Shown piece after piece: positions 10,534-57,043 of a DNA stretch of 64,000 nucleotides. The stretch lies in assembly GCF_017426705.2 (NCBI RefSeq), contig NZ_CP147251.1, positions 2,332,501 through 2,396,500 of the forward strand, in the 5' to 3' direction. The first letter of the stretch is position 1; each line of letters begins with the position of its first letter. The translations under genes were made by a program, and so were the position numbers. The DNA comes from Enterococcus sp. DIV2402. GTDB taxonomy: Bacteria > Bacillota > Bacilli > Lactobacillales > Enterococcaceae. Below the pieces are notes generated by a model, which saw nothing but the letters and a program-made list of their open reading frames with translations, did not search any database and was not told the DNA's origin.

Positions 10534-10555
10534 CTTTAGCTCCTTTTCTCTAAAT

Positions 10556-10590
10556 AAAAAGGTAACTCCGAAAATGAAGTTACCTTTTTA
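10556..10590 (-). terminator. Terminator between major pilin and sortase genes
   Basis: Hairpin arms GGTAACT / AGTTACC with A-rich upstream and T-rich downstream sequence on the minus strand. It lies inside the pilus gene cluster and probably sets a high pilin-to-sortase ratio by partial termination. Confidence 0.75.
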
Positions 10591-10627
10591 TTCAAGTGAC
10601 CTTTGATAGAGAAAATCTAATTTCCCG

Positions 10628-12106: not shown

Positions 12107-12182
12107 TTAATTTCCTCCTAAATGCTTATTAATAATTTTGGATACTATTTTTTGAAAATTGGGGAATTCGCTAATAACTTTT

Positions 12183-12965: not shown

Positions 12966-12966
12966 C

Positions 12967-29872: not shown

Positions 29873-29934
29873 GTAACCCTCTCCTTTTCTTCTCATTTTA
29901 ACACGTTTTGGTCCCATTGATAGTCGTTATATGC

Positions 29935-38616: not shown

Positions 38617-40441
38617 ATAGTTCATCATACAATCATGAAGACTGCAACGTAGGAGGTGTGGTATGCAAAAATTTATAGAAGTATTTCAATCCATGCAGTC
38701 ATGAAGACTGTAACGACAACAGGAATATTTAATTCTATATTTCTGTTCACACCTTATAAAATTTGTAACATACACCTAGTAGAAGCTTTTCAAACTCGTT
38801 ATTTTAATCCAACTCATTGTATAGAATATAATCATTATTTTAGCATATAAACAACAGCGATAAAACAATTTATATTGTTATACTCTAACTCATCCTTCAA
38901 ATTCTGTGAGCAATTTATATAGGATACACATAGTTCATTAAAATCATTTACATTTTTATGTTGCAATTTTTGAATGACCCCTAAATAAGTCTTATTATTG
39001 ATTTTCAAACTACCGTTTATGCTGGTGGAAGACTGCAACACGCTGATGATAAAGGCGTGGGGTGTACATAGTTTATTTCAATCCATGCAGTCATGAAGAC
39101 TGCAACGAAGAGATTTTTACTTTGGCATTAGGCGGTAAATTAATTTCAATCCATGCAGTCATGAAGACTGCAACCAGATGTCGCAACAGAAACAGAAGAT
39201 TCCTTTGTAATTTCAATCCATGCAGTCATGAAGACTGCAACAAAAGAAGACAAAAAAACACCCTCACAAGCATAGATTTCAATCCATGCAGTCATGAAGA
39301 CTGCAACTGTAGTTTCCCCATTTAAAAAGGGGAGAAGCTTTATTTCAATCCATGCAGTCATGAAGACTGCAACATTTAGAAATGAGTGGTTCTGCTTGTC
39401 GAGAGTATATTTCAATCCATGCAGTCATGAAGACTGCAACAGTGCAAGTTGGGCTATGCAGGAGTATACACCTATTTCAATCCATGCAGTCATGAAGACT
39501 GCAACAGCAAGAGTTACAGACAAGGAAACACTATCCAATTATTTCAATCCATGCAGTCATGAAGACTGCAACTCGTCTCGTTTTAAAACCTCTACGGGTT
39601 GTATGATTTCAATCCATGCAGTCATGAAGACTGCAACGCTAAAAAATCTATGCATTTGGTACTTGCGAAAATTTCAATCCATGCAGTCATGAAGACTGCA
39701 ACGAAGTTGGTTCGCTTCAAGAGATAAATATGGAAATATTTCAATCCATGCAGTCATGAAGACTGCAACAGAAAAGATTGTCGAAGGACATGGTAAAAAG
39801 CTAATTTCAATCCATGCAGTCATGAAGACTGCAACTGAATCAGTCTAAATCCAAGCGGGCTTATTTGTTAATTTCAATCCATGCAGTCATGAAGACTGCA
39901 ACTGATTGCGCTTCTGTTCTTGTTGTAAGTGTATTGGCATTTCAATCCATGCAGTCATGAAGACTGCAACTGGTACTAAATAAAGATTGTTTGTTTCAAC
40001 CGCAAATTTCAATCCATGCAGTCATGAAGACTGCAACTAATTTTTGCAACTGTTCTATATCTTCATCGTCCTTTATTTCAATCCATGCAGTCATGAAGAC
40101 TGCAACGGAAGGGAAATACGAAGCTGACAAGTGGTGGAATATTTCAATCCATGCAGTCATGAAGACTGCAACATAAAGCAAAAGGTGCAGCTCTTGATGC
40201 AATCGGTATTTCAATCCATGCAGTCATGAAGACTGCAACCCATTACTTTGACGGCGCAACGTACGTTTTTACCATTTCAATCCATGCAGTCATGAAGACT
40301 GCAACTCATCGCTCTGCCTCCTGTTCCAATACCCATTGACTATTTCAATCCATGCAGTCATGAAGACTGCAACCCGTTGAGCTATTCCCTGTGCTAGCCG
40401 AGTTGCAACATTTCAATCCATGCAGTCATGAAGACTGCAAC
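38617..40441 (-). CRISPR. CRISPR array 1, type I-C-like, 21 perfect repeats plus decayed distal copies
   Basis: 32-nt repeats begin at 39075 and recur about every 67 nt to 40410; all 21 are identical. In the crRNA sense (minus strand) the repeat starts GTT, contains the palindrome GCAGTCTTCATGACTGC and ends GGATTGAAAT, the pattern of type I-C repeats. Spacers are 32-37 nt. At the leader-distal (left) end there is a one-mismatch repeat at 38683, a terminal copy at 38617 whose crRNA 3' part is degraded, a 12-nt fragment at 39028, and about 313 nt without clear repeats between 38715 and 39027. No cas gene is in the window. Confidence 0.95.
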
Positions 40442-40620
40442 GGCGATTTATGGAGAAAATGGTCTGAAGAGGACACATTTTCTGATGAGTATCGCCCAAT
40501 TATATATATTTTTTGGTAAAATTGAATATAATCGTATTTATTTCCTCATCATTTTATCATTTAATGACATTTTAGTGGTGCGAATCTCCTAGGGAATTTA
40601 TGGGAGCTTAGGATTCGCAC
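40442..40620 (-). promoter_or_regulatory. Leader of CRISPR array 1
   Basis: AT-rich region shared in blocks with the leader of array 2. Next to the first repeat an inverted hexamer pair GGCGAT / ATCGCC spans 55 nt (40442-40496). Then come a TATATAAT promoter-like element, a conserved AAATAAATACGATTATAT block, and at 40578-40620 a 43-nt hairpin with arms GTGCGAAT / ATTCGCAC. Homology between the two loci ends at that hairpin. Confidence 0.8.
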
Positions 40621-40670
40621 TCATTACCTTATTATTTTTTTATTACTTTATTTTATCATGAAAAAGAACA

Positions 40671-40712
40671 AAAAGATCCAAGAACAACTAAAAATTGTCC
40701 TTGGATCTTTTT
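40671..40712 (-). terminator. Terminator after ypiB
   Basis: Long arms AAGATCCAAGAACAA / TTGTCCTTGGATCTT (one mismatch) with T-run on the minus strand. It isolates the ypiA-ypiB unit from the CRISPR leader. Confidence 0.85.
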
Positions 40713-41278
40713 TATTCAGTCACTAATGCTTTCTTTTCTAATAGCTGATTAACCTCGGTGGATAATTGTAGAAACAATTCGTGATTATCATTTTCTAAGG
40801 CTTGATCGATTTGTCTATATAAATCTGCAATTTTCATCTCTACATCTTCTGTGAAAAAATATTCTTCTAGTTTTGACACAACATCAGCGTCTAATGTTTC
40901 ATTCCAACGATGATATGGATTATCTTCTAAAACAGCTAAAAAGAATTCATTTTCCCATGAACGATTAAAGCGGCATTCTAAATATAGTGGATGCTTCCAA
41001 TTCAACCGGATTTCATGAAAAATTTGATCACTATCTGTAAAGACTTTATCTTTTAAAAATAATGATATTGGTTCACCTTCTAGGGTAGTTGCTTGAACAC
41101 AAATCCCACGAGGTGTTTTATCTGCATGTTCAACAAAATGAACATTTTTCAATATTGTTTCATGATTTGTTAAATAATTCAAAATCCAAGAAACTTCTCG
41201 ACGTGAAAAAGACTCATGTGACACCAACCAATTTAAAAAACGTTTTTTATCTGCAACATTGATGGTCATTTTTTTCAC
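40712..41278 (-). CDS. ypiB: UPF0302 family protein YpiB
   Basis: A 188-residue protein of the YpiB family, with the typical FLNWLVSHESFSRREVSWIL opening and IDQALENDNHELFLQLSTEV near the C-terminus. No established biochemical role. It directly follows the TPR gene ypiA, as in Bacillus, where both lie downstream of aromatic amino acid genes. The start is GTG at the ypiA stop or the ATG three codons later. Confidence 0.85.
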   Translation of the reverse strand: MKKMTINVADKKRFLNWLVSHESFSRREVSWILNYLTNHETILKNVHFVEHADKTPRGICVQATTLEGEPISLFLKDKVFTDSDQIFHEIRLNWKHPLYLECRFNRSWENEFFLAVLEDNPYHRWNETLDADVVSKLEEYFFTEDVEMKIADLYRQIDQALENDNHELFLQLSTEVNQLLEKKALVTE

Positions 41279-41279
41279 C

Positions 41280-42536
41280 CTATCTTTCTGATAAATCGTC
41301 TAAAATAGACTGTACCTCCAAATCACCTGGTTCATGAGCTAAATAATGAGACAACAGATGACGCGCTTCCTCTAAGCGCCCTTCTTCACGTAAGAAAATA
41401 CCATATTCTTTCATAAATTCAGGCTCATGGTTTAAGGCAATATTTGCCTCTTCATAATATTTTGTAGCAGAATCGAATTCTTCCAATTCGTTATAAGCAT
41501 GGGCTAGATTCCATAAAGCATACGGATTATCTTGATCTTCCATACGGCTAATGGCATCAATCACTTCATCAAACATTTCTTCATTTAAGTACAAATTACT
41601 TAATGTTAATAATGTCTCATCTGCTTTTTCGCCAGTTTCTAACGCTTTTACTAGGTAATCTTCTGCTTTTTTTACATCATGTAATCGATAGCTATTTTCA
41701 GAAGCGAAATGATAAAAATCAACTTGGTAAGGATTTTCTTGAATCCCTTCTTCAATTACTGCCTGTGCTTCTTCTAATAACTCTTCTTCTTGTAATGCTT
41801 CTGCTAGATATAAATATAATGCTTGATACTGCGGATTCATCACACGCAATTGTTGTAAATAATAAATAGCTTTCTCATTTTCTTTCAATTGTAAATAGAC
41901 AAAAGCCGTCTGAAATAAACGATCATCTGTTTGTTCGTCTTCCAATGCTTCTTCTAAAAATAAAACTGCTTCTTCAAATTTCCCTTGCATACTTAACGAT
42001 GATCCAATTCTTTCGACAAGTGAGATTCCTGTGACATCTAAAGTCTCATCTTGTAACAGTTTCCGATAGATTTGTTCTGCTTCAACAAACTTATCCATTG
42101 AAAAATATAATTCCGCTAAAGCAAATTGAATTAAATTCTCTTCTGGCAATAATTGAGCCGCTTCTTTTAATTTTGCTTCGCTCACTTCAGGAATTCCTAA
42201 CACTTGATACAAATCAGCTGTAATCAATAAAGCTTGTGGATATGTCTCGCTTGATTTAGAAATGGCTTCTAAATATTCAAACGCTTCTTCCATCTCGTTA
42301 TTCTCAATTGCAATTTCTGCAAGTGGTAAATTATAGGCATCTTCGCTTGGTTGACGCTCTGTTAATGTAATAAAAACTGCTTTGGCTTCTTCTAAAAAAC
42401 CAATAGCTAATAATTCTTCTCCTAATTCTGCCAAAATAGCATCATCATCTTTTTGTAATGCTTCTTCTAAAGATAATTGTGCTTCAGCTAAATCTTCATT
42501 TTGTAACGCTTGAAGCATTTTTTCACTGTATGTCAT
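41280..42536 (-). CDS. ypiA: TPR-repeat protein YpiA
   Basis: A 418-residue, strongly acidic protein made almost entirely of tetratricopeptide repeats (about ten helical pairs, for example FALAELYFSMDKFVEAEQIY and YLYLAEALQEEELLEEAQAV). No signal or membrane segment. Such proteins act as scaffolds, and the partner is unknown. It is followed two bases later by ypiB and preceded by the AroB-like gene, so the three form one unit. Confidence 0.88.
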   Translation of the reverse strand: MTYSEKMLQALQNEDLAEAQLSLEEALQKDDDAILAELGEELLAIGFLEEAKAVFITLTERQPSEDAYNLPLAEIAIENNEMEEAFEYLEAISKSSETYPQALLITADLYQVLGIPEVSEAKLKEAAQLLPEENLIQFALAELYFSMDKFVEAEQIYRKLLQDETLDVTGISLVERIGSSLSMQGKFEEAVLFLEEALEDEQTDDRLFQTAFVYLQLKENEKAIYYLQQLRVMNPQYQALYLYLAEALQEEELLEEAQAVIEEGIQENPYQVDFYHFASENSYRLHDVKKAEDYLVKALETGEKADETLLTLSNLYLNEEMFDEVIDAISRMEDQDNPYALWNLAHAYNELEEFDSATKYYEEANIALNHEPEFMKEYGIFLREEGRLEEARHLLSHYLAHEPGDLEVQSILDDLSER

Positions 42537-42545
42537 TTTCTTCCC

Positions 42546-43586
42546 TCAAATCTCGGCAATCATTTTTTGATAATGTTCCATCGATTGTATTAACTGATTT
42601 TCAGTTATTGATTGCTCTCTTCCTATTGTACCAATTTCTGACAAAACCACCAACTGTGGGTACTTTTTCTGTAAATGTAACACATTTTGCAAGTATTCAG
42701 CAACCGAAATCTGCTCTGGAAAAACAATCGGAAAGCCTAAATGCTTTAACCAAATCATAAAGTTTTTAATTCGAAAAGTTGTTTCTATAATTTCTAAATT
42801 CCAAAATAAATGCAATACCATTCCTAAAAAGCGTTTCATATTTTCTGAGAGCAAATGGCCATTTTCTGTATGATAAAATGCCTCTTCGAATATTTTACCG
42901 AATCCTTCAATTTCTTTTGAAGCTTGCTGATAACTCTCTATGACTTGGGACACAAAGGCTATAAAAGAAGTTGATTGCACTTGTTTTCTATTTGGGAAAT
43001 TTTTAAATAGTGTTTGTAGAAATGCATAATTATAAACTAGGCCTACACGAATAAATGCTTGTAAATCCACTAATTTCCCATCATTTTGTCCAGCAACAAT
43101 GGTTTGATCTAAAAAAATTTTTTCTGGTAAATTCTTTTCTGTTAACAACATTTCCATCGATTGCTTACAAATAAACCGTTCTTCAACAAGAGCTGCTACG
43201 AATGAACGCAAGGTGGTAGGCAAGACCCAAAAATTACCTGATAAAATAGTAGTCTTTTGAATAAAACCAGTCAACTGAATGACACCTTCGTTTCCAAAAG
43301 CAACAAATAAATACTCTTTATTTGGAGAAAATTGACCTAAAAAGTCTAATACATCCATTAATTCCCGAACATGATTTCCATAAATCAAGTTACTACAAAC
43401 ATACCAATCAATTGCTTGTGGAGAAAATATGTGTTGAATTTTTTCAAAAAAATGATCGTAATAGCGTTGATTTGTTAAAACAATAATATGTTTATTTGCA
43501 AACATTTCTGGATGAATACTTGAAGATAAAATTTCACCATAAACAATAGCTGTTGTTGCATTATTTTTTTGATAATTTAACTGCAT
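42546..43586 (-). CDS. Degenerate 3-dehydroquinate synthase-like protein
   Basis: A 346-residue protein that follows the AroB fold throughout: HIIVLTNQRYYDHFFEKI (Rossmann part), VIQLTGFIQKTTILSGNFWV then LPTTL, LPEKIFLDQTIV, AFIRVGLVYNYAFLQ, and GHLLSENMKRFLGMVL. The catalytic signatures are lost: the GGG loop reads FGNEG, DSSVGGK reads SFVAALVE, and the zinc-binding HxxH/HGE region is eroded. It is probably not an active synthase. Its place ahead of ypiA-ypiB, where aro genes lie in relatives, supports descent from aroB. Confidence 0.65.
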   Translation of the reverse strand: MQLNYQKNNATTAIVYGEILSSSIHPEMFANKHIIVLTNQRYYDHFFEKIQHIFSPQAIDWYVCSNLIYGNHVRELMDVLDFLGQFSPNKEYLFVAFGNEGVIQLTGFIQKTTILSGNFWVLPTTLRSFVAALVEERFICKQSMEMLLTEKNLPEKIFLDQTIVAGQNDGKLVDLQAFIRVGLVYNYAFLQTLFKNFPNRKQVQSTSFIAFVSQVIESYQQASKEIEGFGKIFEEAFYHTENGHLLSENMKRFLGMVLHLFWNLEIIETTFRIKNFMIWLKHLGFPIVFPEQISVAEYLQNVLHLQKKYPQLVVLSEIGTIGREQSITENQLIQSMEHYQKMIAEI

Positions 43587-43634
43587 CTTTCTCCCTCCTT
43601 GTTATGTATTATAACACGTTTATTTAAAGAACAG

Positions 43635-43668
43635 AAAAAAGCAAAATCCCGAAAGATTTTGCTTTTTT
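43635..43668 (-). terminator. Terminator after ilvA
   Basis: Arms GCAAAATC / GATTTTGC followed by T's on the minus strand, ending the ilv transcript just beyond the ilvA stop. Confidence 0.85.
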
Positions 43669-43670
43669 CA

Positions 43671-44936
43671 TTAGACTAATAAGGTGAATAACGATTGGTT
43701 TTCACTCAAATCAATATAGGCAGGATCAAACTCAGCAATGCGTTCAAATAGACTTGGAACATCTTCACGTGTTTTTGATAACACACCTAAGACAACCGGC
43801 CCTGATCCACGATTGATTTTTTTCGTATATTCAAAACGAGTAATATCATCATCTGGACCTAACACTTCACTAACAAATTCTTTCAATGCTCCTGGGCGTT
43901 GAGGAAAATTGATAACAAAGTAATTCATCAATCCTTGATATATCAATGAACGTTCTTCAATTTCGGCCATACGATTAATGTCGTTGTTACCGCCACTAAT
44001 AATACAAATAACCGTTTTCCCTTTAATTTCAGCTTGCATCGATTCTAATGCTGCCACACTTAATGCACCCGCAGGTTCTGCGACAATTGCTTGTTTACTA
44101 TACAATTCTAAAATTGTAGAACAAACTAAGCCTTCATCTACAGTCATCAGCTGATCAACATATTCTTTCGCATGTTGATAGGTAAGTTGTCCGACTTCTT
44201 TTACAGCTGCTCCATCTACGAATTTATCGAGTTGTTTCAAGGCAACAGGTGCGCCGTAATCAAAAGCCTCTTGCATAGAAGGGGCTCCTTTTGGCTCCAC
44301 TCCAATAATCTTAGTTACTGGACTAACATCTTTAACATACGTGCTAACACCACTGATTAGGCCACCACCGCCAATTGCTGCAAATACATAGTCAGGCTGA
44401 TAGCTTTCTGCTAATGCATCTGCCATCATTTCAACTGCTAACGTTCCTTGACCAGCAATAATTGCTGGATCATCAAAAGGATCGATAAATGCCATTCCTT
44501 TTTCTTTTGCAAAAGCTTTAGCTGCTGCTGCCGAAGCATCGAAGGTATCTCCTACTAATTCAATCGTGACATTATTGCCACCGAAGAAAGAAACTTGTGA
44601 TACTTTTTGTTGTGGGGTTGTACTTGGCATAAAGATGACTGCTTGTACTCCGATTTCTCGACAAGTATAAGCAACTCCTTGCGCATGATTTCCGGCACTC
44701 GCACACACAACACCTGATTCTAATTCACTTTGCGGACGCTTTTTAATCGCATAATAAGCGCCACGCAATTTGAATGAACGTACTTTTTGTAAGTCTTCTC
44801 GTTTTAGTAGGATTGTTGCTTGATATTTTTCTGATAGATATCGATCATATTGTAATGGTGTATGAGCAACAGCTGATTTGAGTAGCTGATACGCTTGGTC
44901 TACATCATTTCTTGTTACTAACCCCAAATTATTCAC
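43671..44936 (-). CDS. ilvA: Threonine ammonia-lyase (biosynthetic)
   Basis: A 421-residue PLP enzyme converting threonine to 2-oxobutanoate for isoleucine. The PLP lysine is in VRSFKLRGAYYAI (about residue 56), and the PLP phosphate loop GGGGLISG and CIISGGNNDINR are present. A single C-terminal ACT-like regulatory domain (about 330-421, FVINFPQRPGALKEFV) gives the shorter Gram-positive form. It is last in the ilvB-N-C-A unit. Confidence 0.93.
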   Translation of the reverse strand: MNNLGLVTRNDVDQAYQLLKSAVAHTPLQYDRYLSEKYQATILLKREDLQKVRSFKLRGAYYAIKKRPQSELESGVVCASAGNHAQGVAYTCREIGVQAVIFMPSTTPQQKVSQVSFFGGNNVTIELVGDTFDASAAAAKAFAKEKGMAFIDPFDDPAIIAGQGTLAVEMMADALAESYQPDYVFAAIGGGGLISGVSTYVKDVSPVTKIIGVEPKGAPSMQEAFDYGAPVALKQLDKFVDGAAVKEVGQLTYQHAKEYVDQLMTVDEGLVCSTILELYSKQAIVAEPAGALSVAALESMQAEIKGKTVICIISGGNNDINRMAEIEERSLIYQGLMNYFVINFPQRPGALKEFVSEVLGPDDDITRFEYTKKINRGSGPVVLGVLSKTREDVPSLFERIAEFDPAYIDLSENQSLFTLLV

Positions 44937-44951
44937 ACCCCTACTTATGTC

Positions 44952-46004
<1,053 letters not shown>

Positions 46005-46013
46005 TTAATGCGT

Positions 46014-46487
46014 TTAACCTCTTTTTATTCCGGTAATACCGGTTCTTGCCAATTGTTTGATACCATATGGACGTAACACATCAATAAATGCGTTAATTTT
46101 GTCATGAGTACCTGCCACTTGGACAATAATAGTTTTTTGTGCCACATCAACGATATCAGCACGAAATGGTGCAATAACTGCTTGAATCTCAGAACGAACA
46201 CTCATTGGTGCATTTACTTGAATTAAAGCTAATTCTCTTTCGATGTGTGGATCATCCGTAATATCTGATACCTTCACAACTTCGATTTGTTTGTTTAATT
46301 GTTTTGTTACTTGCTCTGCTTCTGACAAAGTGTTCACATTAATAACAATTGTCATCCGAGAAATTTCTGCTTCAACTACGCCGACTGAAATACTTTCGAT
46401 ATTTACTTGTCGACGATTTAATACACTCGTAATTCGACTAAGTACACCAGATTTATTATACACGATTGCTGTTATAATTCGTCTCAT
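46014..46487 (-). CDS. ilvN: Acetolactate synthase small subunit
   Basis: A 157-residue regulatory subunit with an N-terminal ACT domain (RRIITAIVYNKSGVLSRITS) followed by a second ACT-like region ending KQLARTGITGIKRG. It gives valine feedback control and stabilises the large subunit. It starts directly at the ilvB stop, so subunits are made together. Confidence 0.95.
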   Translation of the reverse strand: MRRIITAIVYNKSGVLSRITSVLNRRQVNIESISVGVVEAEISRMTIVINVNTLSEAEQVTKQLNKQIEVVKVSDITDDPHIERELALIQVNAPMSVRSEIQAVIAPFRADIVDVAQKTIIVQVAGTHDKINAFIDVLRPYGIKQLARTGITGIKRG

Positions 46488-46488
46488 T

Positions 46489-48195
46489 TCACTCCACCCC
46501 TATCATCTGATCATTAGGAACTCCCGCAGGAACCATTGGCGTAACGTGTTCCGAATTTGAAACAATTACTTCAATCAACATTGGCCCTTCTTTTGCAAAG
46601 GCTGCTTCTAGTTCACTATCGACAGTGGCAGGATTCATGATACGTACAGCATCAATGCCATAAGCCTCTGCTAATTTAATGAAGTCTGGCTGTCCATCAA
46701 AAACAGAAGAAGAACGTCTTTCATTATGGAATCGTTCTTGCCATTGACGAACCATTCCTAAAGAACCATTGTTAATTAATACAAATTTAACGTTCAAACC
46801 ATTTTCATTTAAAATAGCAAATTCTTGGTTAGTCATTTGGAAACCACCATCACCAACGAAAACAATTACAGGACGATCACGATAAGCAAATTGTGCTCCA
46901 ATTCCAGCTGGTATTCCAAAGCCCATCGTTCCAAGTCCACCACTTGTAATTAATTGATTTGGAAAATTGAATGGATAATATTGTGCAACCCACATTTGAT
47001 GTTGACCAACGTCAGTTGAGACAAAAGATTGTCCTTTTGTAATTTCTCCAATTTTTTCAATAACACGTTGTGGCTTAATCTCATCTTTGTTTTCACGATC
47101 ATATTTAAATGGGTATTTTTGTTTGCGTTCTATGCAAAGTTCTTGCCATGCTTGACTATCCACTTCAAAAGGTTCAAAAGCTAATAATTTTTCTAAAGCA
47201 TTTTTTGCATCTCCCACAATCGGAATATCTGTTGGAATGATTTTTCCAATTTCAGCTGGATCAATATCAATATGCGCAATCACTGCTCCTGTTGCAAATT
47301 GACTTGGACACGTAGCCAAACGATCATCAAAACGACTACCTATATTAATGAGTAGGTCACATTCAGCTAACGCCATGTTGGAAGCATAACTTCCGTGCAT
47401 TCCGCCCATACCTAAAAAGTACGGACAATCTGCTGGCAATGTTCCTAAACCAAGTAAAGTTGTGACAGTCGGTAATTTGTAACGTTCAACAAACTCTTGT
47501 AACTCTTTTGCCGCATTTGCAGCCGTAATCCCCGCACCAGCTAATACAATTGGTTTTTTCGCTTTTTTGAGTTGCTCCATCAAGCGAGTTATTTGTAATT
47601 GTGAAGGATTGGTTGTTGGCTGATAGCTAATCAAATTGACTGGTTTCGTCCGTTGCGTATAGGTGCCCTCAATAATTGAAATATCTTTTGGTAAATCAAT
47701 AACAACAGGTCCTTTACGACCAGTTGTTGCAATATGAAAAGCTTCATCAATGGTTTTTTCTAATTCTTCCACATCACGAACTTGGTAATTATGTTTTGTG
47801 ATGGGTAGTGTAATTCCTAAAATATCTGCTTCTTGAAAAGCGTCTTTCCCAATACCAGGTGTTGCAACTTGTCCTGTAATAACAATTAGAGGAACAGAAT
47901 CGCCCATCGCATCTGCAATCCCCGTCACAACGTTTGTTGCTCCAGGACCACTTGTTACAATTACTACACCAGGTTTGCCTGTTGCTTTGGCATATCCTTC
48001 TGCCGCATGTACTGCACCTTGTTCATGTCTTGTTAGGATATTGGGAATTTCTGCATCGTATAAAGCATCATATAATGGAAGAACCGCACCACCAGGATAC
48101 CCAAAAACTAATTCAACATCATGTTTTTGCAAGCTTTTTAATAAAAGCTGTGCTCCTGACATTTTTTGAGCTATTTCTTGATCTTGATTCTTCAT
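46489..48195 (-). CDS. ilvB: Acetolactate synthase large subunit (biosynthetic)
   Basis: A 568-residue ThDP enzyme that condenses pyruvate with pyruvate or 2-oxobutanoate. The catalytic Glu is in TRHEQGAVHAAEGYA (about residue 60). The FAD-type middle domain is present, and the ThDP-Mg motif is GDGGFQMTNQEFAILNENGL (about 440). Association with ilvN and ilvC marks it as the anabolic form, not the catabolic AlsS. The ribosome-binding site CTAGGAGGAAAA overlaps the stop codon of the ilvD remnant. Confidence 0.95.
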   Translation of the reverse strand: MKNQDQEIAQKMSGAQLLLKSLQKHDVELVFGYPGGAVLPLYDALYDAEIPNILTRHEQGAVHAAEGYAKATGKPGVVIVTSGPGATNVVTGIADAMGDSVPLIVITGQVATPGIGKDAFQEADILGITLPITKHNYQVRDVEELEKTIDEAFHIATTGRKGPVVIDLPKDISIIEGTYTQRTKPVNLISYQPTTNPSQLQITRLMEQLKKAKKPIVLAGAGITAANAAKELQEFVERYKLPTVTTLLGLGTLPADCPYFLGMGGMHGSYASNMALAECDLLINIGSRFDDRLATCPSQFATGAVIAHIDIDPAEIGKIIPTDIPIVGDAKNALEKLLAFEPFEVDSQAWQELCIERKQKYPFKYDRENKDEIKPQRVIEKIGEITKGQSFVSTDVGQHQMWVAQYYPFNFPNQLITSGGLGTMGFGIPAGIGAQFAYRDRPVIVFVGDGGFQMTNQEFAILNENGLNVKFVLINNGSLGMVRQWQERFHNERRSSSVFDGQPDFIKLAEAYGIDAVRIMNPATVDSELEAAFAKEGPMLIEVIVSNSEHVTPMVPAGVPNDQMIGVE

Positions 48196-48206
48196 TAATT
48201 TTCCTC

Positions 48207-48367
48207 CTAGTCTTTTGGTACTCGCATAATTCCACCTGTATGGGCAGATGTTACTAATGCTGTATAGCTACTAACCAACCATGTTTTAATTTGAAACATG
48301 TCTGTTCACGTTCAGCTATTTCTTCATTAGATATTTCAATATTTACTTTTATTTGGTCACTTCTAAT
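48207..48367 (-). pseudogene. ilvD: Remnant of the 3' end of ilvD (dihydroxy-acid dehydratase)
   Basis: Minus-strand translation gives IKVNIEISNEEIAERE, matching the conserved SDEELAER region near the IlvD C-terminus, then GWLV. After a one-base shift it continues SSYTALVTSAHTGGIMRVPK and a stop, resembling the IlvD tail. About the last 50 codons remain; the rest is missing and no start exists. It lies exactly where ilvD stands in ilvDBNCA operons, between attenuator and ilvB. Confidence 0.75.
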
Positions 48368-48410
48368 CGTACCACTCCTAGTTCCTTATGCCAGATTTTT
48401 CTGAAAAAAA

Positions 48411-48446
48411 GAGCATCCTTCTAACAAAGTAGAATGGGATGCTCTC
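48411..48446 (-). terminator. Attenuator terminator of the ilv leader
   Basis: Arms GAGAGCATCC / GGATGCTCTTT with T-run on the minus strand. Upstream GAATGGGAT (48452-48460) is fully complementary to ATCCCATTC within the 5' arm and loop of this hairpin, so an alternative antiterminator can form. Confidence 0.88.
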
Positions 48447-48517
48447 TTGTAAGAATCCCATTCACTAACACAAATAGGACTCAAACAACCGGATTTTTTT
48501 CCGTGTTCTAAGTCCAC

Positions 48518-48559
48518 TTACCTAATAATGACCAATAAGTATTGTCTTTCTTTGTGCAT
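48518..48559 (-). CDS. ilvL: ilv leader peptide (branched-chain attenuation)
   Basis: A 13-residue peptide MHKERQYLLVIIR behind an AAGGAGACG ribosome-binding site, with five consecutive Leu-Leu-Val-Ile-Ile codons just before the end. Stalling there when charged branched-chain tRNAs are scarce would favour the antiterminator over the terminator downstream. It is the classic leader-peptide attenuation design and covers all three end products. Confidence 0.9.
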   Translation of the reverse strand: MHKERQYLLVIIR

Positions 48560-48625
48560 GTGAATCGTCTCCTTACAAGTTGAAAAATCTATTTTTATCT
48601 CTGGTTTATTTTGTTGATTTTTTAC

Positions 48626-48671
48626 AATATAACGTTAATCAAAATAAAAGTCAATAAGTTTTCTGAATTTT
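48626..48671 (-). promoter_or_regulatory. ilv promoter with CodY-like box
   Basis: On the minus strand TTGACT and TATATT are spaced 17 nt, a near-ideal vegetative promoter. Directly upstream AAAATTCAGAAAACT matches 12 of 15 positions of the CodY consensus AATTTTCWGAAAATT. Repression by CodY when branched-chain amino acids and GTP are high is a reasonable inference. Confidence 0.7.
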
Positions 48672-48798
48672 TTTTATTTTCTGCACAAATGGTAAATTTT
48701 ACCACACTGTGGATTTAAAAATGAAAAAAGAATTAGAATTTAACAACTTTTTACCATTGTACATGAAAAACAAATGAATGTTAAGTAAATGTATTCTA

Positions 48799-48836
48799 AA
48801 AAAAGGAATGCGACAAAATTGTCGCACTCCTTTTTA
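48799..48836 (-). terminator. Terminator after trpA
   Basis: Arms AAAGGAATGCGAC / GTCGCACTCCTTT with one mismatch, followed by T's on the minus strand. Ends the trp operon. Confidence 0.85.
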
Positions 48837-49598
48837 TGCAAATAACGATTCAATTAATTCTTGTGTCTGATCTACGCCATCTTGTTCTAAAGTTTGTACA
48901 ATACAACTTCCAATAATGACACCATCGCAATAATTGTTAAATGTTTGAACGTGCTCTGGTTTCGACACACCAAATCCTGCTAAAACTGGGATTGGGCTTT
49001 TTTCGGTGATTTTTTGCAAATGTTGATAAAGGTTATCCTGATAGTTTCGATTAACACCGGTTGTTCCGTTAATTGTTACTGCGTAAATAAATCCATCCGC
49101 ATCACTTACTAATTGTTCAATTCGTTCATCGGAACTAGTTAGAGTCACCAGTTGTATAAACGCAATATCACTATCTTTTGCTGGTTCTAAAAACATTTCT
49201 CGATGCTCATAAGGTAAGTCCGGAATAATTATTCCTTTGACATCTGTCGAACTTAAATCTTCTACTAATTTGTCTAAGCCATAATGAAAAAAAGAATTAA
49301 AATAGCCCATCAAAATTAAAGGAACTGGCGAATTAAATTCATTTAAAAAAGTAATAATCTTCTTTAAAGTTGTTCCACGTTCGCGCGAATGAATCCCTGC
49401 TAGTTGGATAACAGGTCCATCAGCTACTGGATCAGAAAAAGGCACACCTAATTCAATTGCGCTTGCTCCACTGTCAGCTAACATTTCAATTTCATCAGCC
49501 AAACGTCCTAAGCCATTTGCACCAGCCATAATATACGGAATAAATAATTTATTTCCATTGTCTTTTTTTTGTTGTAATACATGTGTTAATGATTTCAT
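48834..49598 (-). CDS. trpA: Tryptophan synthase alpha subunit
   Basis: A 254-residue TIM barrel that cleaves indole-3-glycerol phosphate to indole. The signatures [20 protein letters not shown] (catalytic Glu) and [11 protein letters not shown] (catalytic Asp) are present, as is [11 protein letters not shown] in the phosphate loop. It overlaps trpB by four bases and ends the operon. Confidence 0.96.
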
Positions 49599-50782
49599 TC
49601 CTGTGCCATCCTTTCTTTGATTTGTTGCACATCTTTATCCCCACGACCAGATAAACAGATTAAAATACTTTCTTCTGACGACATTTCTTTCGCTAATTTC
49701 ATTGCATAGGCAATTGCATGTGAACTCTCTAATGCTGGTATGATACCTTCTGTACGTGATAACAAATGGAAACCTTCAAGTGCTTCTTCATCAGTAATTG
49801 TTTTGTATTCTGCTCTTCCAGAAGTATACAAGTGCGAGTGTTCTGGTCCTATGCCAGGGTAATCTAAACCAGCTGAAATAGAAAAGGCTTCTAATACTTG
49901 TCCATCATCATCTTGTAAAAGGTGCATTTTACTTCCGTGTAACACACCAACATCACCTTTTGTGATTGAAGCAGCATGTTCTTCAGTGTCCAAACCTTTT
50001 CCAGCTGCTTCCACCCCAATTAATCGGACATCATCATTGATAAATGGATAGAACAAACCAATTGAATTGCTTCCGCCACCGACGCATGCTAATGCTACTT
50101 CAGGTAATTTTCCTTCGACTTCTAAATATTGGCGCTTTGCTTCAGTCCCAATCACACTTTGAAAGTCACGAACGATTTCTGGGAATGGATGTGGACCCAA
50201 GGCTGAGCCTAATACATAGTGCGTATCTTCTACCGTTGCCACCCAGTAACGTAACGCTTCATTTACAGCGTCTTTTAACGTACGGCTACCTGAAAGGACG
50301 CTTTCGACTTTTGCTCCTAACAATTCCATCCGAAAAACGTTTAACTCTTGGCGTTTCACATCTACTTCACCCATGAAAATAATACATTCCATGCCGAAGA
50401 GTGCTGCAGCAGTTGCAGTAGCTACGCCATGTTGACCAGCACCTGTTTCGGCAACAATTTTATTTTTTCCCATACGTTTTGCTAACAATACTTGACCAAT
50501 CGCATTATTGATTTTGTGCGCTCCGGTATGGTTCAAATCTTCACGTTTTAAATAAATTTTGGCTCCGCCAAGATGTTTGGTTAAATTATCAGCATAATAC
50601 AAAGGCGTTTCACGACCAACATATTGTTTTAAATAGTAGTCCAATGTTGTTTGGAATTCTGGATCATTTTTTGCTTCTTCATAAATTTGTGTTAATTCTT
50701 TCACGGCATACATCAAAGTTTCAGGCACAAATTGCCCACCAAAATTACCGTAAAATCCTTTATTATCTGGTTGTTGATACAT
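49595..50782 (-). CDS. trpB: Tryptophan synthase beta subunit
   Basis: A 395-residue PLP enzyme that joins indole and serine. The PLP lysine is in [15 protein letters not shown] (about residue 85), with the phosphate loop [10 protein letters not shown] and the Glu in [11 protein letters not shown]. The standard TrpB1 form pairs with TrpA. The second ATG is used as start because AAAGGAG lies seven bases before it; the gene starts within the trpF 3' end. Confidence 0.96.
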
Positions 50783-51374
50783 GGTCATACTCCTTTACTT
50801 GATTAATAAATGCTTGAATTTTCGCTAAATCCTTCACACCATTTGTCTCGATACCACTAGATACATCGACGCCAAATGGTTGAAAATAGGTAATTGCTTG
50901 TTGAACATTTTCTGCTGTCAATCCACCAGCAATGAACAATTTTTCTTGAGGCAACAAGTTCAGTTGAACAGCTTTCCATGAAAATGTTTCGCCATTTCCT
51001 CCATAAAACTCTTTCGGTGGTGCATCTAATAGTAAAAAATCAGCGGTTGTCTTAAACTCTTTTTCGTTTCCATTTACACTTTTCGCTTGAATCGTAGGAA
51101 CACCACATGACCCGTTAGGAAAGTCTCCATGAATTTGAACCAAGTCTAATCCAGCTTCTTGAACGGTTCGTTGTAACTGTTCAATAGTTGGAGACACAAA
51201 TACTCCTACTTTTTGAATTGTCACGGGTACATCAGTCGTCATTAATCGTACTTGATCAGATGTCACCTCGCGTTTGCTTTTTGCAAAGACAAACCCCAGA
51301 TAATCTGCTCCCAAACGACATACTTCATCTACTGTATGTTTATCCATCAAGCCACAAATTTTAATTTTCGTCAT
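50763..51374 (-). CDS. trpF: Phosphoribosylanthranilate isomerase
   Basis: A 203-residue TIM barrel opening [18 protein letters not shown], with the catalytic Cys in KICG and the later catalytic Asp in LLLDAPP, and the phosphate-binding [10 protein letters not shown]. It converts PRA to CdRP. It overlaps trpC upstream and trpB downstream, showing tight coupling. Confidence 0.95.
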
Positions 51375-52128
51375 GACGACTCACTCGCAATTCTGCAATT
51401 TTTGCTTTTGGATTTTCTGCACGCATCAACGTCTCTCCAACTAAAATAACATGATAATCTTCTGCTACTCGTTTGGCATCTTCACCGGTAACAAAGCCAG
51501 ATTCACTAATGTAGATTGGACCATCATCAGGCTGAGCTAAATCTAAGCTGTGCTGAATATCTACAATAAATGTTTTTAAATTACGATTGTTTACGCCAAT
51601 GATTTTAGCATCAATTGCGTGTGCCTTTTCCATTTCTTCAGTATTATGTGTTTCAACTAAAACCTCTAAATCAAGAGATATTGCTTTTTCATGCAATTCT
51701 TTTAGTTTATCGAAAGGTAATGCTGCAACAATTAACAAGACCATGCTTGCTCCTGCGTTTTTTGCACGGAATAACTGTTTTTCGTCGATAATAAAATCTT
51801 TACACAAAACAGGTACTTGAACATTTTTAGCAACTGTTTGTAAATCTGTCATATTTCCTTTAAAAAATACTTCATCGGTTAAAACTGAAATTGCTGAAAC
51901 ACCCGCTTGTTCATAAGATTTTGCTTGTGCGACAATATCAACATCGACATTGATTTCTCCTTTTGAAGGAGAAGCCCGCTTAATTTCTCCAATTACATGA
52001 AGTTTTTCTGGATGTTCTTTTACTTGCTGGTAAAAAGGATAGGCTTTTGCTTGATTTTTTCGTTCAACAATTGGTAATTGCGCGACTTCTTTACATTTTT
52101 CAATTAAAATTTTCTCTAAAAAATCCAT
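51361..52128 (-). CDS. trpC: Indole-3-glycerol phosphate synthase
   Basis: A 255-residue TIM barrel that closes the indole ring. Visible are IGEIKRASPSKGEIN (catalytic Glu, Lys), VLCKDFIIDEKQL (catalytic Lys), IGVNNRNLKTF and ISESGFVTGED. It starts at the trpD stop (TAATG) and overlaps trpF. Confidence 0.96.
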   Translation of the reverse strand: MDFLEKILIEKCKEVAQLPIVERKNQAKAYPFYQQVKEHPEKLHVIGEIKRASPSKGEINVDVDIVAQAKSYEQAGVSAISVLTDEVFFKGNMTDLQTVAKNVQVPVLCKDFIIDEKQLFRAKNAGASMVLLIVAALPFDKLKELHEKAISLDLEVLVETHNTEEMEKAHAIDAKIIGVNNRNLKTFIVDIQHSLDLAQPDDGPIYISESGFVTGEDAKRVAEDYHVILVGETLMRAENPKAKIAELRVSRHDEN

Positions 52129-53141
52129 TACTGGACCTCCTTTTGTTTCTCAATTAATTGTGCTAATTTTTCGCGAGCAGCCCCAGAAGCAATGATTTTT
52201 CTCGCTTCTTCTACGCCTTCTTTTACGCTATTCACCTTTCCATTTGCATAAAAACCTAATCCTGCGTTCAATAAAACGGTATCTAGAAAAGGTGATGGTT
52301 GATTCTCTAAAACTGAAACAAGAATTTCTGCATTACGTTTAGAATCTCCGCCAACTATTGCTTCTAAAGGATATTCTGGTAATCCCGCATCCGCAGCAGA
52401 AATCGTGAATTCTTCAACCTTACCATTTTCTAGTAATGCAAATTTTGTATCTCCAGCTAAATTAGCTTCGTCCATCCCATATGCTCCTTGCAAAACAATC
52501 GCTCGTTTACGTCCAAGCTTACCAAGCGTTTCTGCTGTTTCTTTGAGTAAGCTTTCCGCAAAAGTTCCCATTAGCTGTGTTTCCAAGTTTACTGGATTGG
52601 TTAGTGGACCAATTAAATTTAAAATAGTTGGCGTTGCTAGTTCACGGCGAACATTAATGACATAACGCATGCTAGGATGCATTGCTTGTGCGAATAAGAA
52701 GGCAATTCCAATTTCATTTAATAGTTGGCTAATTTGCTCTTGTGATGTCGTCAGTTTCACGCCTAGTTCCTCTAAAACATCGGCACTACCAGAACGACTA
52801 GAGATACTACGATTCCCATGTTTTGCCATTGGTATCCCACCTGCTGCTAAAACAAAAGCAGTTGTTGTACTCACATTAAAACTGTTCGAATGATCGCCAC
52901 CAGTTCCGCAATTATCCATTGCATTAGTTGGTGCATTTTCAATTGTTAAAGCATTTTTTTGCATAACTTTGGCAATTGCAGCCATTTCTGTTGATGTAAT
53001 GCCCTTCATTTTTAAAGCAATCAATGCAGCAGAAATTTGTGTATCTTTTAATTCACCTGTAAAAATCATTTCTGCTAATTGGGTCATTTCTGATTCAGTC
53101 AAATCATTTCCTTGATATAATTTTTCAAATATTTCTTTCAT
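52128..53141 (-). CDS. trpD: Anthranilate phosphoribosyltransferase
   Basis: A 337-residue nucleoside phosphorylase-like transferase. It carries the PRPP-binding DNCGTGGDHSNSFNVSTTTA (about residue 82) and KHGNRSISSRSGSADVLEEL. It adds ribose phosphate to anthranilate. It begins immediately after trpG and ends at the trpC start. Confidence 0.96.
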   Translation of the reverse strand: MKEIFEKLYQGNDLTESEMTQLAEMIFTGELKDTQISAALIALKMKGITSTEMAAIAKVMQKNALTIENAPTNAMDNCGTGGDHSNSFNVSTTTAFVLAAGGIPMAKHGNRSISSRSGSADVLEELGVKLTTSQEQISQLLNEIGIAFLFAQAMHPSMRYVINVRRELATPTILNLIGPLTNPVNLETQLMGTFAESLLKETAETLGKLGRKRAIVLQGAYGMDEANLAGDTKFALLENGKVEEFTISAADAGLPEYPLEAIVGGDSKRNAEILVSVLENQPSPFLDTVLLNAGLGFYANGKVNSVKEGVEEARKIIASGAAREKLAQLIEKQKEVQ

Positions 53142-53702
53142 TTATTTATCCTCCACTACCTCTAGGAATGTATCAATCATTGTCTGACCCTCTATTGTAC
53201 CAATTGATTCTGGATGGAATTGTAATCCATAAACAGGGTATTCTTTATGCTTAATCGCCATAATTTCATCATCTGCATACCCATATACTTCAAAAACTTC
53301 TGGTAATGTATCTGGTTCAATAATTAATGAGTGATAACGCATGATATCTGTATCTAAAGTTACATCACGAAACAATCCTTGTTGCTCATGCTTTAATTTA
53401 GAAACTTTCCCATGCATAATTTTTGTAGCAATACTAATTTTCCCGCCGAAAACCTCTCCTAATGCTTGATGCCCTAAGCAAATACCTAGCATCGGTTTTT
53501 CTTTGTAAAAACGACGAATGATTTCTTCCATTAAACCAGCTTCATCTGGTCTTCCTGGCCCAGGTGAAAAGACAATTGCGGATGCTTTTTTAGCTGTTTC
53601 AATTAATGCAGGATCATCATTTCGTAAAATGACAAGTTCTGCATTAAATTGATGTGCCAAATTGTGTGTAAACGAATCATAATTATCAACTAATAAAATC
53701 AT
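53142..53702 (-). CDS. trpG: Anthranilate synthase component II (glutamine amidotransferase)
   Basis: A 186-residue class I amidotransferase with catalytic Cys in MLGICLGHQALGE (about residue 79) and the His-Glu pair in LQFHPESIGT. It supplies ammonia to TrpE and in many Firmicutes also serves PabB. It overlaps trpE by four bases. Confidence 0.95.
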   Translation of the reverse strand: MILLVDNYDSFTHNLAHQFNAELVILRNDDPALIETAKKASAIVFSPGPGRPDEAGLMEEIIRRFYKEKPMLGICLGHQALGEVFGGKISIATKIMHGKVSKLKHEQQGLFRDVTLDTDIMRYHSLIIEPDTLPEVFEVYGYADDEIMAIKHKEYPVYGLQFHPESIGTIEGQTMIDTFLEVVEDK

Positions 53703-55066
53703 CTTCCCACCTCCAAAAGGGCTTTAGCTTTTTGTAATGTCTCATAATATTCAGCTGTTGGATCTGAATCTGCCACTATGCCTGCACCTGCTTGAATATA
53801 AGCTTTTTTATCTTTAATTAGCATGGTACGAATGGCTATTGCAAAGTCGGCTTGATTATCCATAGAATAATATCCCACAGCCCCAGCATACATGCCTCGT
53901 TTGACTGGTTCTAATTCATAGATACGAGTCATAGCACGAATTTTCGGAGCCCCACTGACAGTACCTGCTGGTAAGGTTGCTCTTAATGCATCCATTGGTG
54001 TTAAATCTTCTTTTAGCTCTCCAGTTACTAGAGAAACAATGTGCATGACATAACGATACTTTTCAATGGTCATATTTATTGGTAATCGTACAGTCCCACG
54101 TTTAGCAATTTGTCCAATGTCATTTCTTCCTAAATCGATTAACATCATATGTTCTGCACGTTCTTTTTCATCTGCTAATAATTCTTCTGCTAACGCCACA
54201 TCTTCTTCAACTGTTGCGCCTCGCTTTCTAGTACCAGCAATCGGATTAGTTGTCACAAGTCCATTCTTTACACTAACAAGACTTTCTGGTGAACAACCTA
54301 CCACTTGTAATTCTTCAAAATTGAGGAAATACATATACGAAGACGGATTGGAGAGACGTAAGTAGCGATAATAATCAAATGGATCTAACTCAAATTCGGC
54401 TTGTAGCCGTTGTGATAAAACAATTTGGAATAAATCGCCTTCTTCAATTAATTTTTTCGCTTTACGAACACGATTTTCAAATTCTTCTTGACTAACATTA
54501 CTAGTGAATGGTAAATTGATGTCTTTTTTCTCAATTAATTCTTTTGATGTTGGTGTTTGTAAAAAGCCAACAATCTCTTGAATACGCGTTTCCATTTCAA
54601 CGACTGTTTTTTTGCTGTAGGCATTTGAATGAACGATAGTCACTATTTCAGTACGATGATCGTATACAACAAAAGTTTCAAAAACGTAGAAATAGATATC
54701 TGGTACATCTAATTCATCTTTTGGAATTTGTCCAATATTTTCATAACAAGCAGCCACATCATAACCCGCGTACCCAATCGCTCCACCCTGGAATGGAATT
54801 TCAGGAATTATTTCTTCGTCATGAAGGATGTGCTTCTCCAATTCTTTTAGTGGATCGGAACAAGGAAAACTTTCGCCATTTACTGAAAAAATCCCTTCTT
54901 GATAACGTAATACTTTAACAGGATCAAGTGCAACAATTGAATAACGTGCTCCTTCTTCAGCTTCACGAGGGTTGCTTTCTAATAAAAATTTTTTATCATG
55001 TTGAATTCTTAAAAAAATAGATACCGGCGTTAAATAATCCCCTTGTATTTGTCGAGTAATTTTCAT
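53699..55066 (-). CDS. trpE: Anthranilate synthase component I
   Basis: About 455 residues, chorismate-binding. The C-terminal catalytic domain shows FQIVLSQRLQAEF, TNPIAGTRKRG, DLGRNDIGQI and LPAGTVSGAPKIRAM. The tryptophan-binding N-terminal motif is LLESNP. The chosen ATG follows AAAGGATG at a seven-base spacing; longer readings run back into the T-box and are not plausible. First gene of trpEGDCFBA. Confidence 0.95.
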   Translation of the reverse strand: MKITRQIQGDYLTPVSIFLRIQHDKKFLLESNPREAEEGARYSIVALDPVKVLRYQEGIFSVNGESFPCSDPLKELEKHILHDEEIIPEIPFQGGAIGYAGYDVAACYENIGQIPKDELDVPDIYFYVFETFVVYDHRTEIVTIVHSNAYSKKTVVEMETRIQEIVGFLQTPTSKELIEKKDINLPFTSNVSQEEFENRVRKAKKLIEEGDLFQIVLSQRLQAEFELDPFDYYRYLRLSNPSSYMYFLNFEELQVVGCSPESLVSVKNGLVTTNPIAGTRKRGATVEEDVALAEELLADEKERAEHMMLIDLGRNDIGQIAKRGTVRLPINMTIEKYRYVMHIVSLVTGELKEDLTPMDALRATLPAGTVSGAPKIRAMTRIYELEPVKRGMYAGAVGYYSMDNQADFAIAIRTMLIKDKKAYIQAGAGIVADSDPTAEYYETLQKAKALLEVGR

Positions 55067-55097
55067 TTTATTCATCCTTTCATGACTGCTAAATACA

Positions 55098-55395
55098 AAA
55101 AAGCCCTCAGACTCACTAAAAGTAAGTCTGAGGGCGAATAAATTCACGGTGCCACCTCAATTAATTTGAATAATTTTATTCAAATTCTCGTTATCAATCG
55201 TCTATCAACGATTTTCCTCTATAACGGGAGTTCCCGGAGTCACCTACTTCAGTTCAATGCCTCAGCGCAAAAGCCCATTCACTCTTTTTAACTTACTGAC
55301 TCGCACCCTCCGTCAGCTCCCTGTAAAGTATCAAAAAAGTTACTCTTCTTTTGTCCGCTTAATATTTAATCAGAATATTACATTCTTCTCATCTA
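55098..55395 (-). promoter_or_regulatory. T-box riboswitch, tryptophan specifier
   Basis: The minus strand has the T-box core TGAGGTGGCACCGTG (55145-55159) and a terminator with arms CGCCCTCAGACT / AGTCTGAGGGC and T-run. Upstream the specifier region GTGAATGGGC offers TGG (Trp) at 55275-55277. Uncharged tRNA-Trp should turn on the trp operon. Confidence 0.92.
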
Positions 55396-55553
55396 ATTGT
55401 CAACATATTTTTATTATTTTATTAAAAATTATTTTTTAAGGATATCTATAACAAAAACAGTTCTCGTATTTTACAGCTAATACGAGAACTATTTTTTGAA
55501 AATTTTTAGTAAAAATAAATATTCATGATACCCTTCTTAATCAAATTGTAAGA
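55396..55553. other. Intergenic region between trp T-box and CRISPR array 2
   Basis: AT-rich. It holds the trp promoter region near its left edge and a terminator hairpin. No gene is seen. Confidence 0.5.
55455..55497. terminator. Terminator downstream of CRISPR array 2
   Basis: Arms AGTTCTCGTATT / AATACGAGAACT with A-run and T-run on the two sides. On the minus strand it would end the array transcript before the trp promoter. Confidence 0.7.
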
Positions 55554-56855
55554 GATCTACTCTACAGGGTTATGACAATTGCAACGAGTTAGTGACAAAT
55601 CACCTAGAATATTTTAGAAAATTTCAATCTATGAAGTTGTGAATACTGCAACTAAAAGAAGCGTAGCGTGAGTATGCCTCAACTTGTGATTTCAATCCAT
55701 GCAGTCATGAAGACTGCAACAATTAACTGAGATAATGCAGGACGTTGAAGACTTATTTCAATCCATGCAGTCATGAAGACTGCAACGGTCCACAAGGGAT
55801 TGCTGGGTTACAGGGACCCCAAGATTTCAATCCATGCAGTCATGAAGACTGCAACATCCATCGAATTATGTTTGGTCTCGTTTGCTTGGAATTTCAATCC
55901 ATGCAGTCATGAAGACTGCAACTAATAACTGATAATTACTGATTTCAGCTTTATTCTCTATTTCAATCCATGCAGTCATGAAGACTGCAACAATCTTAAA
56001 CCATAGCAAATCTTTGGCATCTATAATTTCAATCCATGCAGTCATGAAGACTGCAACCAAGATTTTGTAGGCGGTATAGGTGACTGGATTCGATTTCAAT
56101 CCATGCAGTCATGAAGACTGCAACGGTAATAAACAAGCTTCGCCGCCTATTGGCAATAAATTTCAATCCATGCAGTCATGAAGACTGCAACACATAAGTC
56201 CGATATTGTTTTCCAACCGGTAGTAATTTCAATCCATGCAGTCATGAAGACTGCAACTGCTTCACTATTAGTTCAAGATCAATATAGCAAAATTTCAATC
56301 CATGCAGTCATGAAGACTGCAACCCTCCGAACCTTGGATGAACTTGGGTATAACGTGATTTCAATCCATGCAGTCATGAAGACTGCAACAACCCGTTACG
56401 TTGAAGAAATATAGCACTGACCCATTTCAATCCATGCAGTCATGAAGACTGCAACGTTGATATGTCGTTTGATAATATACTGGATGTCGTAATTTCAATC
56501 CATGCAGTCATGAAGACTGCAACATCAAATTAGCAGGTAAAAATAACGTTAACTATGATTTCAATCCATGCAGTCATGAAGACTGCAACTATCCGGACGA
56601 CTACAATTTTCTGTCAGCCCAATTATTTCAATCCATGCAGTCATGAAGACTGCAACGGGAGACATGACAGCGCCCAACGTATCTGCTCAAATTTCAATCC
56701 ATGCAGTCATGAAGACTGCAACAAAAAATAAAGGTCATGGAGGATGGTAAGACATGGATTTCAATCCATGCAGTCATGAAGACTGCAACCGATATCGCTT
56801 AGACTGATATCGCCCAAACTTTGATTTCAATCCATGCAGTCATGAAGACTGCAAC
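55554..56855 (-). CRISPR. CRISPR array 2, type I-C-like, 18 perfect repeats plus two decayed distal copies
   Basis: 18 identical 32-nt repeats start at 55689 and recur to 56824. They have exactly the same sequence as array 1 and the same orientation (crRNA on the minus strand, leader at right). Spacers are about 34-37 nt. Two decayed repeats precede: 55621-55652 (five mismatches) and 55554-55585 (recognisable mainly at its TTGCAAC end), each separated by a normal spacer length. No cas gene is adjacent or elsewhere in the window. Confidence 0.95.
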
Positions 56856-57043
56856 GGCGATTGTTAGTAAAAATAAGACAAAAACGCGTTACTTTTGATG
56901 AATATCGCCCGATTATAATTATTTTTTGTCTCAAAATAGGCAAAATAGGATATAATCGTATTTATTTCTCATCATTTTCTCACTTTCGTTCATTTTATTG
57001 GTGCGAATCTCCTAGGGATTTTATGGGAGCTTACTATTCGCAC
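56856..57043 (-). promoter_or_regulatory. Leader of CRISPR array 2
   Basis: Shares ordered blocks with leader 1: GGCGAT / ATCGCC pair spanning 54 nt next to the first repeat, a TATAAT element, the AAATAAATACGATTATAT block, and a 43-nt hairpin at 57001-57043 with arms GTGCGAAT / ATTCGCAC. Sequence between blocks has diverged, so the duplication is not recent. Confidence 0.8.

Follow-up and report, generated by a model that had tools for sequence, protein, structure and literature searches.

Two probable cas-distant type I-C CRISPR arrays at the borders of a relocated ilv-trp block in Enterococcus sp. DIV2402

Type I-C CRISPR (clustered regularly interspaced short palindromic repeats) loci are known in enterococci (PMC10165109) and in Tetragenococcus (PMC8249745). 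Multiple arrays with one repeat are common, and the figure given in PMC12814883 is that 25.0% of arrays have another array with an identical consensus repeat in the same genome. Here we describe two arrays of one 32-nt repeat in a 64,000-nt stretch of Enterococcus sp. DIV2402 (contig NZ_CP147251.1, positions 2,332,501 to 2,396,500, forward strand), hereafter the window. Since same-repeat arrays and I-C loci of this sort are on record, the window arrays belong to an already known kind of system. We consider it very likely that both belong to a type I-C CRISPR-Cas system with several arrays and lie apart from its cas operon.

The window arrays resemble multi-array I-C systems in their 32-nt I-C-type repeat, in a leader of the type found at the cas-adjacent array of a relative, G211, and in phage-like spacers. 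The I-C loci described for Tetragenococcus halophilus, from a related family, likewise have a 32-nt I-C repeat and a recurrent chromosomal site, but the repeat given there matches ours at 25 of 32 positions, and those loci carry cas genes and sit where the dhaMKL operon has been lost, whereas the window arrays lack adjacent cas genes and occupy other sites (PMC8249745). The orphan arrays reported for enterococci also lack neighbouring cas genes; in that source, however, an orphan belongs to a genome without cas, while our arrays are known from 64 kb, and the I-C repeats it lists differ from the window repeat (PMC10165109). A literature search for array-driven rearrangement turned up one statement, on Thermotoga, where CRISPR loci are credited with large-scale inversions (PMC5637354, citing DeBoy 2006); there too arrays lie at the borders of a moved chromosomal segment, but the window presents a relocation, in which the part played by the arrays is putative.

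Array anatomy and type I-C assignment

A scan of the window found 39 exact copies of the repeat, 21 in array 1 and 18 in array 2, all on one strand (Table 1), bearing out the initial annotation, which had counted 39 identical intact repeats in two loci. A 7-bp stem can form within the repeat. The arrays hold 37 spacers, 33-37 nt in length, none of them common to both arrays (BLAST, E 0.01). Degenerate copies outside the 39 lie in the old end of array 1 at 38683 (1 mismatch) and 38617 (9 mismatches), and one forms the oldest repeat of array 2. The leaders adjoin their arrays on the higher-coordinate side and share 78.5% identity over 177 aligned columns; each carries a 43-nt palindrome, and AATCGCC abuts the first repeat. 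The arrays thus have the same orientation and a common leader type, as had been claimed.

The seven I-C Cas proteins of G211 gave no match in the window (tblastn, E 0.01), which confirms within this stretch that no cas genes lie near either array. The type I-C-like label also held. Like other I-C repeats, the window repeat is about 32 nt long with a short stem and the 3' end ATTGAAAT; it equals the Bacillus halodurans I-C repeat printed in PMC6519985 at 27 of 32 positions and the cas-adjacent repeat of G211 at 28 of 32. The leader adjoins the newest repeat and is shared with a cas-adjacent I-C array, that of G211. On contig C62 of G211, the complete operon cas3, cas5c, cas8c, cas7c, cas4c, cas1c, cas2c is followed by the same palindrome and an array, and the palindrome recurs at arrays distal to the operon.

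One of these distal arrays is on contig C14, where ilvBNC-A, an AroB-like gene, ypiA and ypiB are followed by the palindrome and 11 repeats; it occupies the ypiB-side place of window array 1. A third palindrome, on contig C23, has its own distinct repeat, with repeats of the common kind at the contig end, and a fourth stands at the end of the short contig C19 with no repeat visible. The C23 locus (L298:10228 onward) is worth recording in itself, as a case in which the same leader palindrome precedes an array of a clearly different repeat.

The second informative relative, G034, is a sister species: a fetched stretch of 60 kb aligns to window positions 22-64 kb with 85-89% identity over five long pieces. 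Its array 1 is in the same place as ours, with a leader 94% identical over 168 columns and an old end 92% identical over 703 aligned positions. The latter comparison touches a further feature, about 360 nt of non-repeat DNA within the old end of window array 1 (38715-39074), which is kept in G034. At site 2, G034 has only a relic, the palindrome and one degenerate repeat. Because array 1 is in place and site 2 has left a relic, both array sites are older than the split of the window lineage from G034. None of the spacers of G034 array 1 is found in the window arrays, and spacers must therefore have been gained or lost since that split.

G034 array 1 has six repeats, and the five nearest the leader share one stem-breaking change (predicted folding energy from -11 to -5.9 kcal/mol). 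Because all five carry the same change, this array probably gained spacers after it arose. These consecutive altered repeats (L236:1417-1715) stand in a genome without a cas8c match, while cas8c matches were found in 22 of 105 genomes of its family, Enterococcus species included in the sample. The sole Cas1 match of G034 is in a type I-B operon with another repeat. A third array, three repeats with the leader palindrome, lies 525 kb away.

Allowing two mismatches or fewer, the leader palindrome occurred in 2 of these 105 genomes (three copies in G034, four in G211), and the repeat occurred only in G034 among 395 drawn Lactobacillales genomes and in 0 of 29 genomes of the Vagococcus elongatus family. 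Metagenome relatives of the G211 Cas8c formed three clusters, 73-74% identical to it, whose source genome is not linkable to that of the window; the ypiB genes of G211 and the window, at 73% identity, differ by about the same amount.

Spacer targets and the source of Cas proteins

Two of the 37 spacers match phage or plasmid sequences over full or nearly full length (Table 1). The spacer at 56058 finds its best match in three viral contigs and has further matches in an Enterococcus phage, in a plasmid record from E. faecium and in a record that is, oddly, labelled Acinetobacter phage; the plasmid targets of the spacer at 56324 are two conjugative plasmids. Four spacers were scored in detail, and the other two, with one target each (6 and 9 mismatches), were left uncounted. 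The remaining spacers gave weak matches only, or matches outside the spacers, among phage and plasmid sequences, and these were dropped. Viral contigs contained no exact copy of the repeat or of the 20-nt core of one recent spacer.

The viral-contig scans for the two matched spacers used custom codon-degenerate patterns. Targets of the spacer at 56058 were preceded on the 5' side by TCA in 56 of 62 cases and by TCT in 6, the TCA cases shown corresponding to TTC one base off. For the spacer at 56324, TTC flanked 29 of 31 targets, 27 of which came from a pattern that required TTC; among the other four, two had TTC and the two best matches had TGC.

The reading of the pair as cas-distant arrays of a multi-array I-C system rests on the two relatives, since G211, with a cas operon and distal arrays, and G034, with the same sites, both fit it. 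Each array would be transcribed leftward from its own leader, as the position of the leaders suggests; the repeats would be cut by Cas5c and the guides loaded on Cascade. Cas1-Cas2-Cas4 would add spacers at both leaders, the Cas proteins being supplied by a cas operon elsewhere in the genome. The intact state of the window loci, with no variation among the 39 counted repeats and two complete leaders, supports this reading, as does the contrast with G034, where a genome without a cas8c match has a relic at site 2 and stem damage in five of six array 1 repeats.

Four points weigh on the other side. We infer the cas operon of a genome whose DNA is known here only as the 64-kb window. Loss of the I-C cas genes in the window lineage is a real possibility, because G034 has the same arrays without cas8c. 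The leaders show no evident promoter, with one and zero promoter-like sites, not above shuffled sequences. The evidence for a protospacer adjacent motif is mixed when set against the expected TTC. Were the cas operon recently lost, as in G034, the arrays would be orphans, unmaintained leftovers; a window without cas genes, and a sister species with the same sites and Cas1 matched only in a I-B operon, are what this alternative expects. It is unlikely, as an unmaintained pair would hardly be expected to keep every counted repeat identical and both leaders complete when G034 has one array reduced to a relic and another with a damaged repeat.

The block between the arrays

A distance of 15,247 bp separates the arrays, counted between their closest exact repeats. 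The genes that the initial annotation placed in this interval of about 15 kb (ypiB-ypiA, the AroB-like gene, ilvBNC-A and trpEGDCFBA) were all found there, together with a T-box upstream of trpE (55127-55364) and ilvD remnants between trpA and ilvB (48210-48462). G034 has ilvD as an open frame; because most of the gene is missing in the window, the ilv pathway of this genome may be broken unless another ilvD copy exists.

Table 1. Coordinates of the arrays, leaders, matched spacers and bordering genes in the window.
Feature	Position	Strand	Description
Array 1	39075..40441	-	21 identical 32-nt repeats, 20 spacers
Old (distal) end of array 1	38617..39074	-	degenerate repeats and about 360 nt of non-repeat DNA
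Leader 1	40442..40620	-	179 nt, palindrome 40578-40620
Array 2	55689..56855	-	18 identical 32-nt repeats, 17 spacers
Oldest repeat of array 2	55621..55652	-	degenerate, 5 mismatches, outside the 39
Leader 2	56856..57043	-	188 nt, palindrome 57001-57043
Spacer	56058..56092	-	matches phage tape-measure genes, full length, best 32/35
Spacer	56324..56357	-	matches cytosine-methyltransferase genes of phages and plasmids, best 30/34
Relocated block	40712..55147	-	ypiB, ypiA, AroB-like, ilvA, ilvC, ilvN, ilvB, ilvD remnants, trpA, trpB, trpF, trpC, trpD, trpG, trpE
Left border genes	36173..38412	-	tmcAL 36173-37339; 358-aa protein (g358) 37336-38412
Right border gene, methyltransferase	57153..57881	-	tmcAL neighbour in family genomes without the block

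The initial annotation further proposed that the arrays act as direct repeats, exchange between them deleting or duplicating the ilv and trp operons in one step. Their shared orientation, 39 identical repeats and 15-kb spacing would suit such an exchange. The longest identical run, however, reaches 38 nt inside the arrays, or 39 nt where the leader end and first repeat are taken together, because unique spacers break up the homology; these runs are short by the minimal lengths for efficient recombination, and the leaders are only 78.5% alike. No relative with a fused array and lost trp or ilv genes was found among the two informative genomes: G034 kept trp, ilvD and ilvBNC-A while its array 2 decayed in place, and G211, in which ilv but not trp was placed, does not have the arrangement. 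That such events happen often enough to matter is highly improbable. With identical runs of at most 38-39 nt and the interval kept in the informative relative, operon loss or duplication by array exchange is not supported, and we reject it as the principal explanation on the basis of one relative and the amount of homology. Rare exchange between the arrays may occur, since G034 is a single comparison.

What the initial annotation had missed is that the interval, judged by gene order in relatives, has itself been relocated and is bordered by an array on each side. The methyltransferase gene and tmcAL were adjacent in 20 of 20 fetched family genomes, picked from 104 with the methyltransferase gene and mostly its best matches. 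In the V. elongatus family, the two genes were less than 500 bp apart in 18 of 29 genomes; in 6 they shared a contig but lay far apart, and in 5 they were on separate contigs. In the window and G034, the block sits between them, with array 2 (a relic in G034) at the methyltransferase side and array 1 with g358 at the tmcAL side. Relatives of g358 are named peptidase M50-domain proteins, the best named one being 44% identical (Enterococcus silesiacus).

On C14 of G211, the array attached to ypiB is at a different locus: beyond it lies a secG-like frame, followed by frames that we take to be esterase, rnr and smpB, with no g358 or tmcAL. The methyltransferase-tmcAL junction of G211 holds a small open reading frame. 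Enterococcus cecorum has other genes after ypiB, and the other compared loci, which have short flanks, showed no secG close to ypiB.

We lean towards a move by another route, a transposon or ordinary rearrangement, in which array 1 came along with ypiB and array 2 was added independently at the new junction. The ypiB-attached array of G211 fits this, as do genes, presumably of transposase families, within 7.2 kb of G034 array 1. The possibility that array 2 had long been present at the methyltransferase-tmcAL junction was considered and rejected, as the palindrome or repeat end was seen there in 0 of the 20 fetched genomes, none of which has the block; this count also favours later addition of array 2. 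Such a history requires, on the other hand, that array 2 landed by chance at the other border of the block. The block may instead have been inserted through recombination of array 1 with an array already at the junction, which would account for same-orientation arrays at both borders and for the far flank of array 1 being the secG side in G211 and the g358-tmcAL side in the window and G034. This route is unlikely: none of the 20 genomes has a junction array without the block, the old ends of array 2 and of the G211 ypiB-side array show no likeness beyond the repeats, and the homology runs are short.

In G034, ypiB and the array 1 leader are about 7.1 kb apart, and several genes between them are, by the names we presume, transposase-like. 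Two near-identical 381-aa frames in opposite orientation lie near the ends of this stretch and flank other genes (L235:14154-20000 and L236:1-1164), an arrangement that we take to be composite-transposon-like.

A separate question is whether arrays of one genome evolve together. Positions 7 and 17 of the repeat, a compensated stem pair, are C7/G17 at the three common-kind places of G211 and G7/C17 in the window and G034. Because the ypiB-side array is present in all three alike, arrays within a genome seem to have evolved in concert, whether through exchange or because one array reseeded the others; the C23 array with its own repeat is an exception to this within-genome likeness. A tree of seven leaders agrees weakly with it, as befits 173 columns. 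Leader 1 and the G211 ypiB-side leader were also considered as simple orthologues: the approximately unbiased test rejected their clade (p 0.038), while the Kishino-Hasegawa and Shimodaira-Hasegawa tests did not (both p 0.051). On a crossover history, exchange between distant arrays would have shaped the chromosome, installing the block with array 1 and leaving two arrays facing the same way, and would also maintain the likeness of arrays within each genome (G7/C17 versus C7/G17); we regard this combined account as improbable.

Other loci and implications

One type I-C locus outside the group compared above has an unusual Cas8c. In G024 (Vagococcaceae; L208:11156-13888), the protein is 910 aa long and carries its C-terminal domain three times in tandem, the copies being 65-67% identical. 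It is flanked by frames in the size and order of cas3, cas5, cas7, cas4, cas1 and cas2, and an array follows. Among 120 relatives listed of 3280, such a length is confined to its own cluster (893 aa), and none of the others exceeds 649 aa. In the solved I-C complex, as described in PMC7684278, two small subunits derive from Cas8c residues 489-612. By its domain layout, the G024 protein may join a large subunit and two small ones in a natural fusion (Cas8c-Cas11c-Cas11c).

Elsewhere in the window, a pilus-type cluster at 8498-16749 contains two class C sortases, an LPXTG major pilin and further surface proteins, flanked by two MafR/AcpB-like regulators. The gene at 29033-29917 is aminoglycoside 6-adenylyltransferase-like and scores below the curated cut-off (270.6 versus 420 bits); several family genomes have weaker relatives close to helD.

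Taken with the relatives, the window arrays show that array sites, probably cas-distant ones, persist across species while their spacers turn over, and that one array can be lost without losing the operons between the arrays. If arrays did serve as operon-moving junctions, CRISPR loci would contribute to changes in gene order in a way that has been overlooked; the window, G034 and G211 provide a defined three-genome case for arrays in that role.

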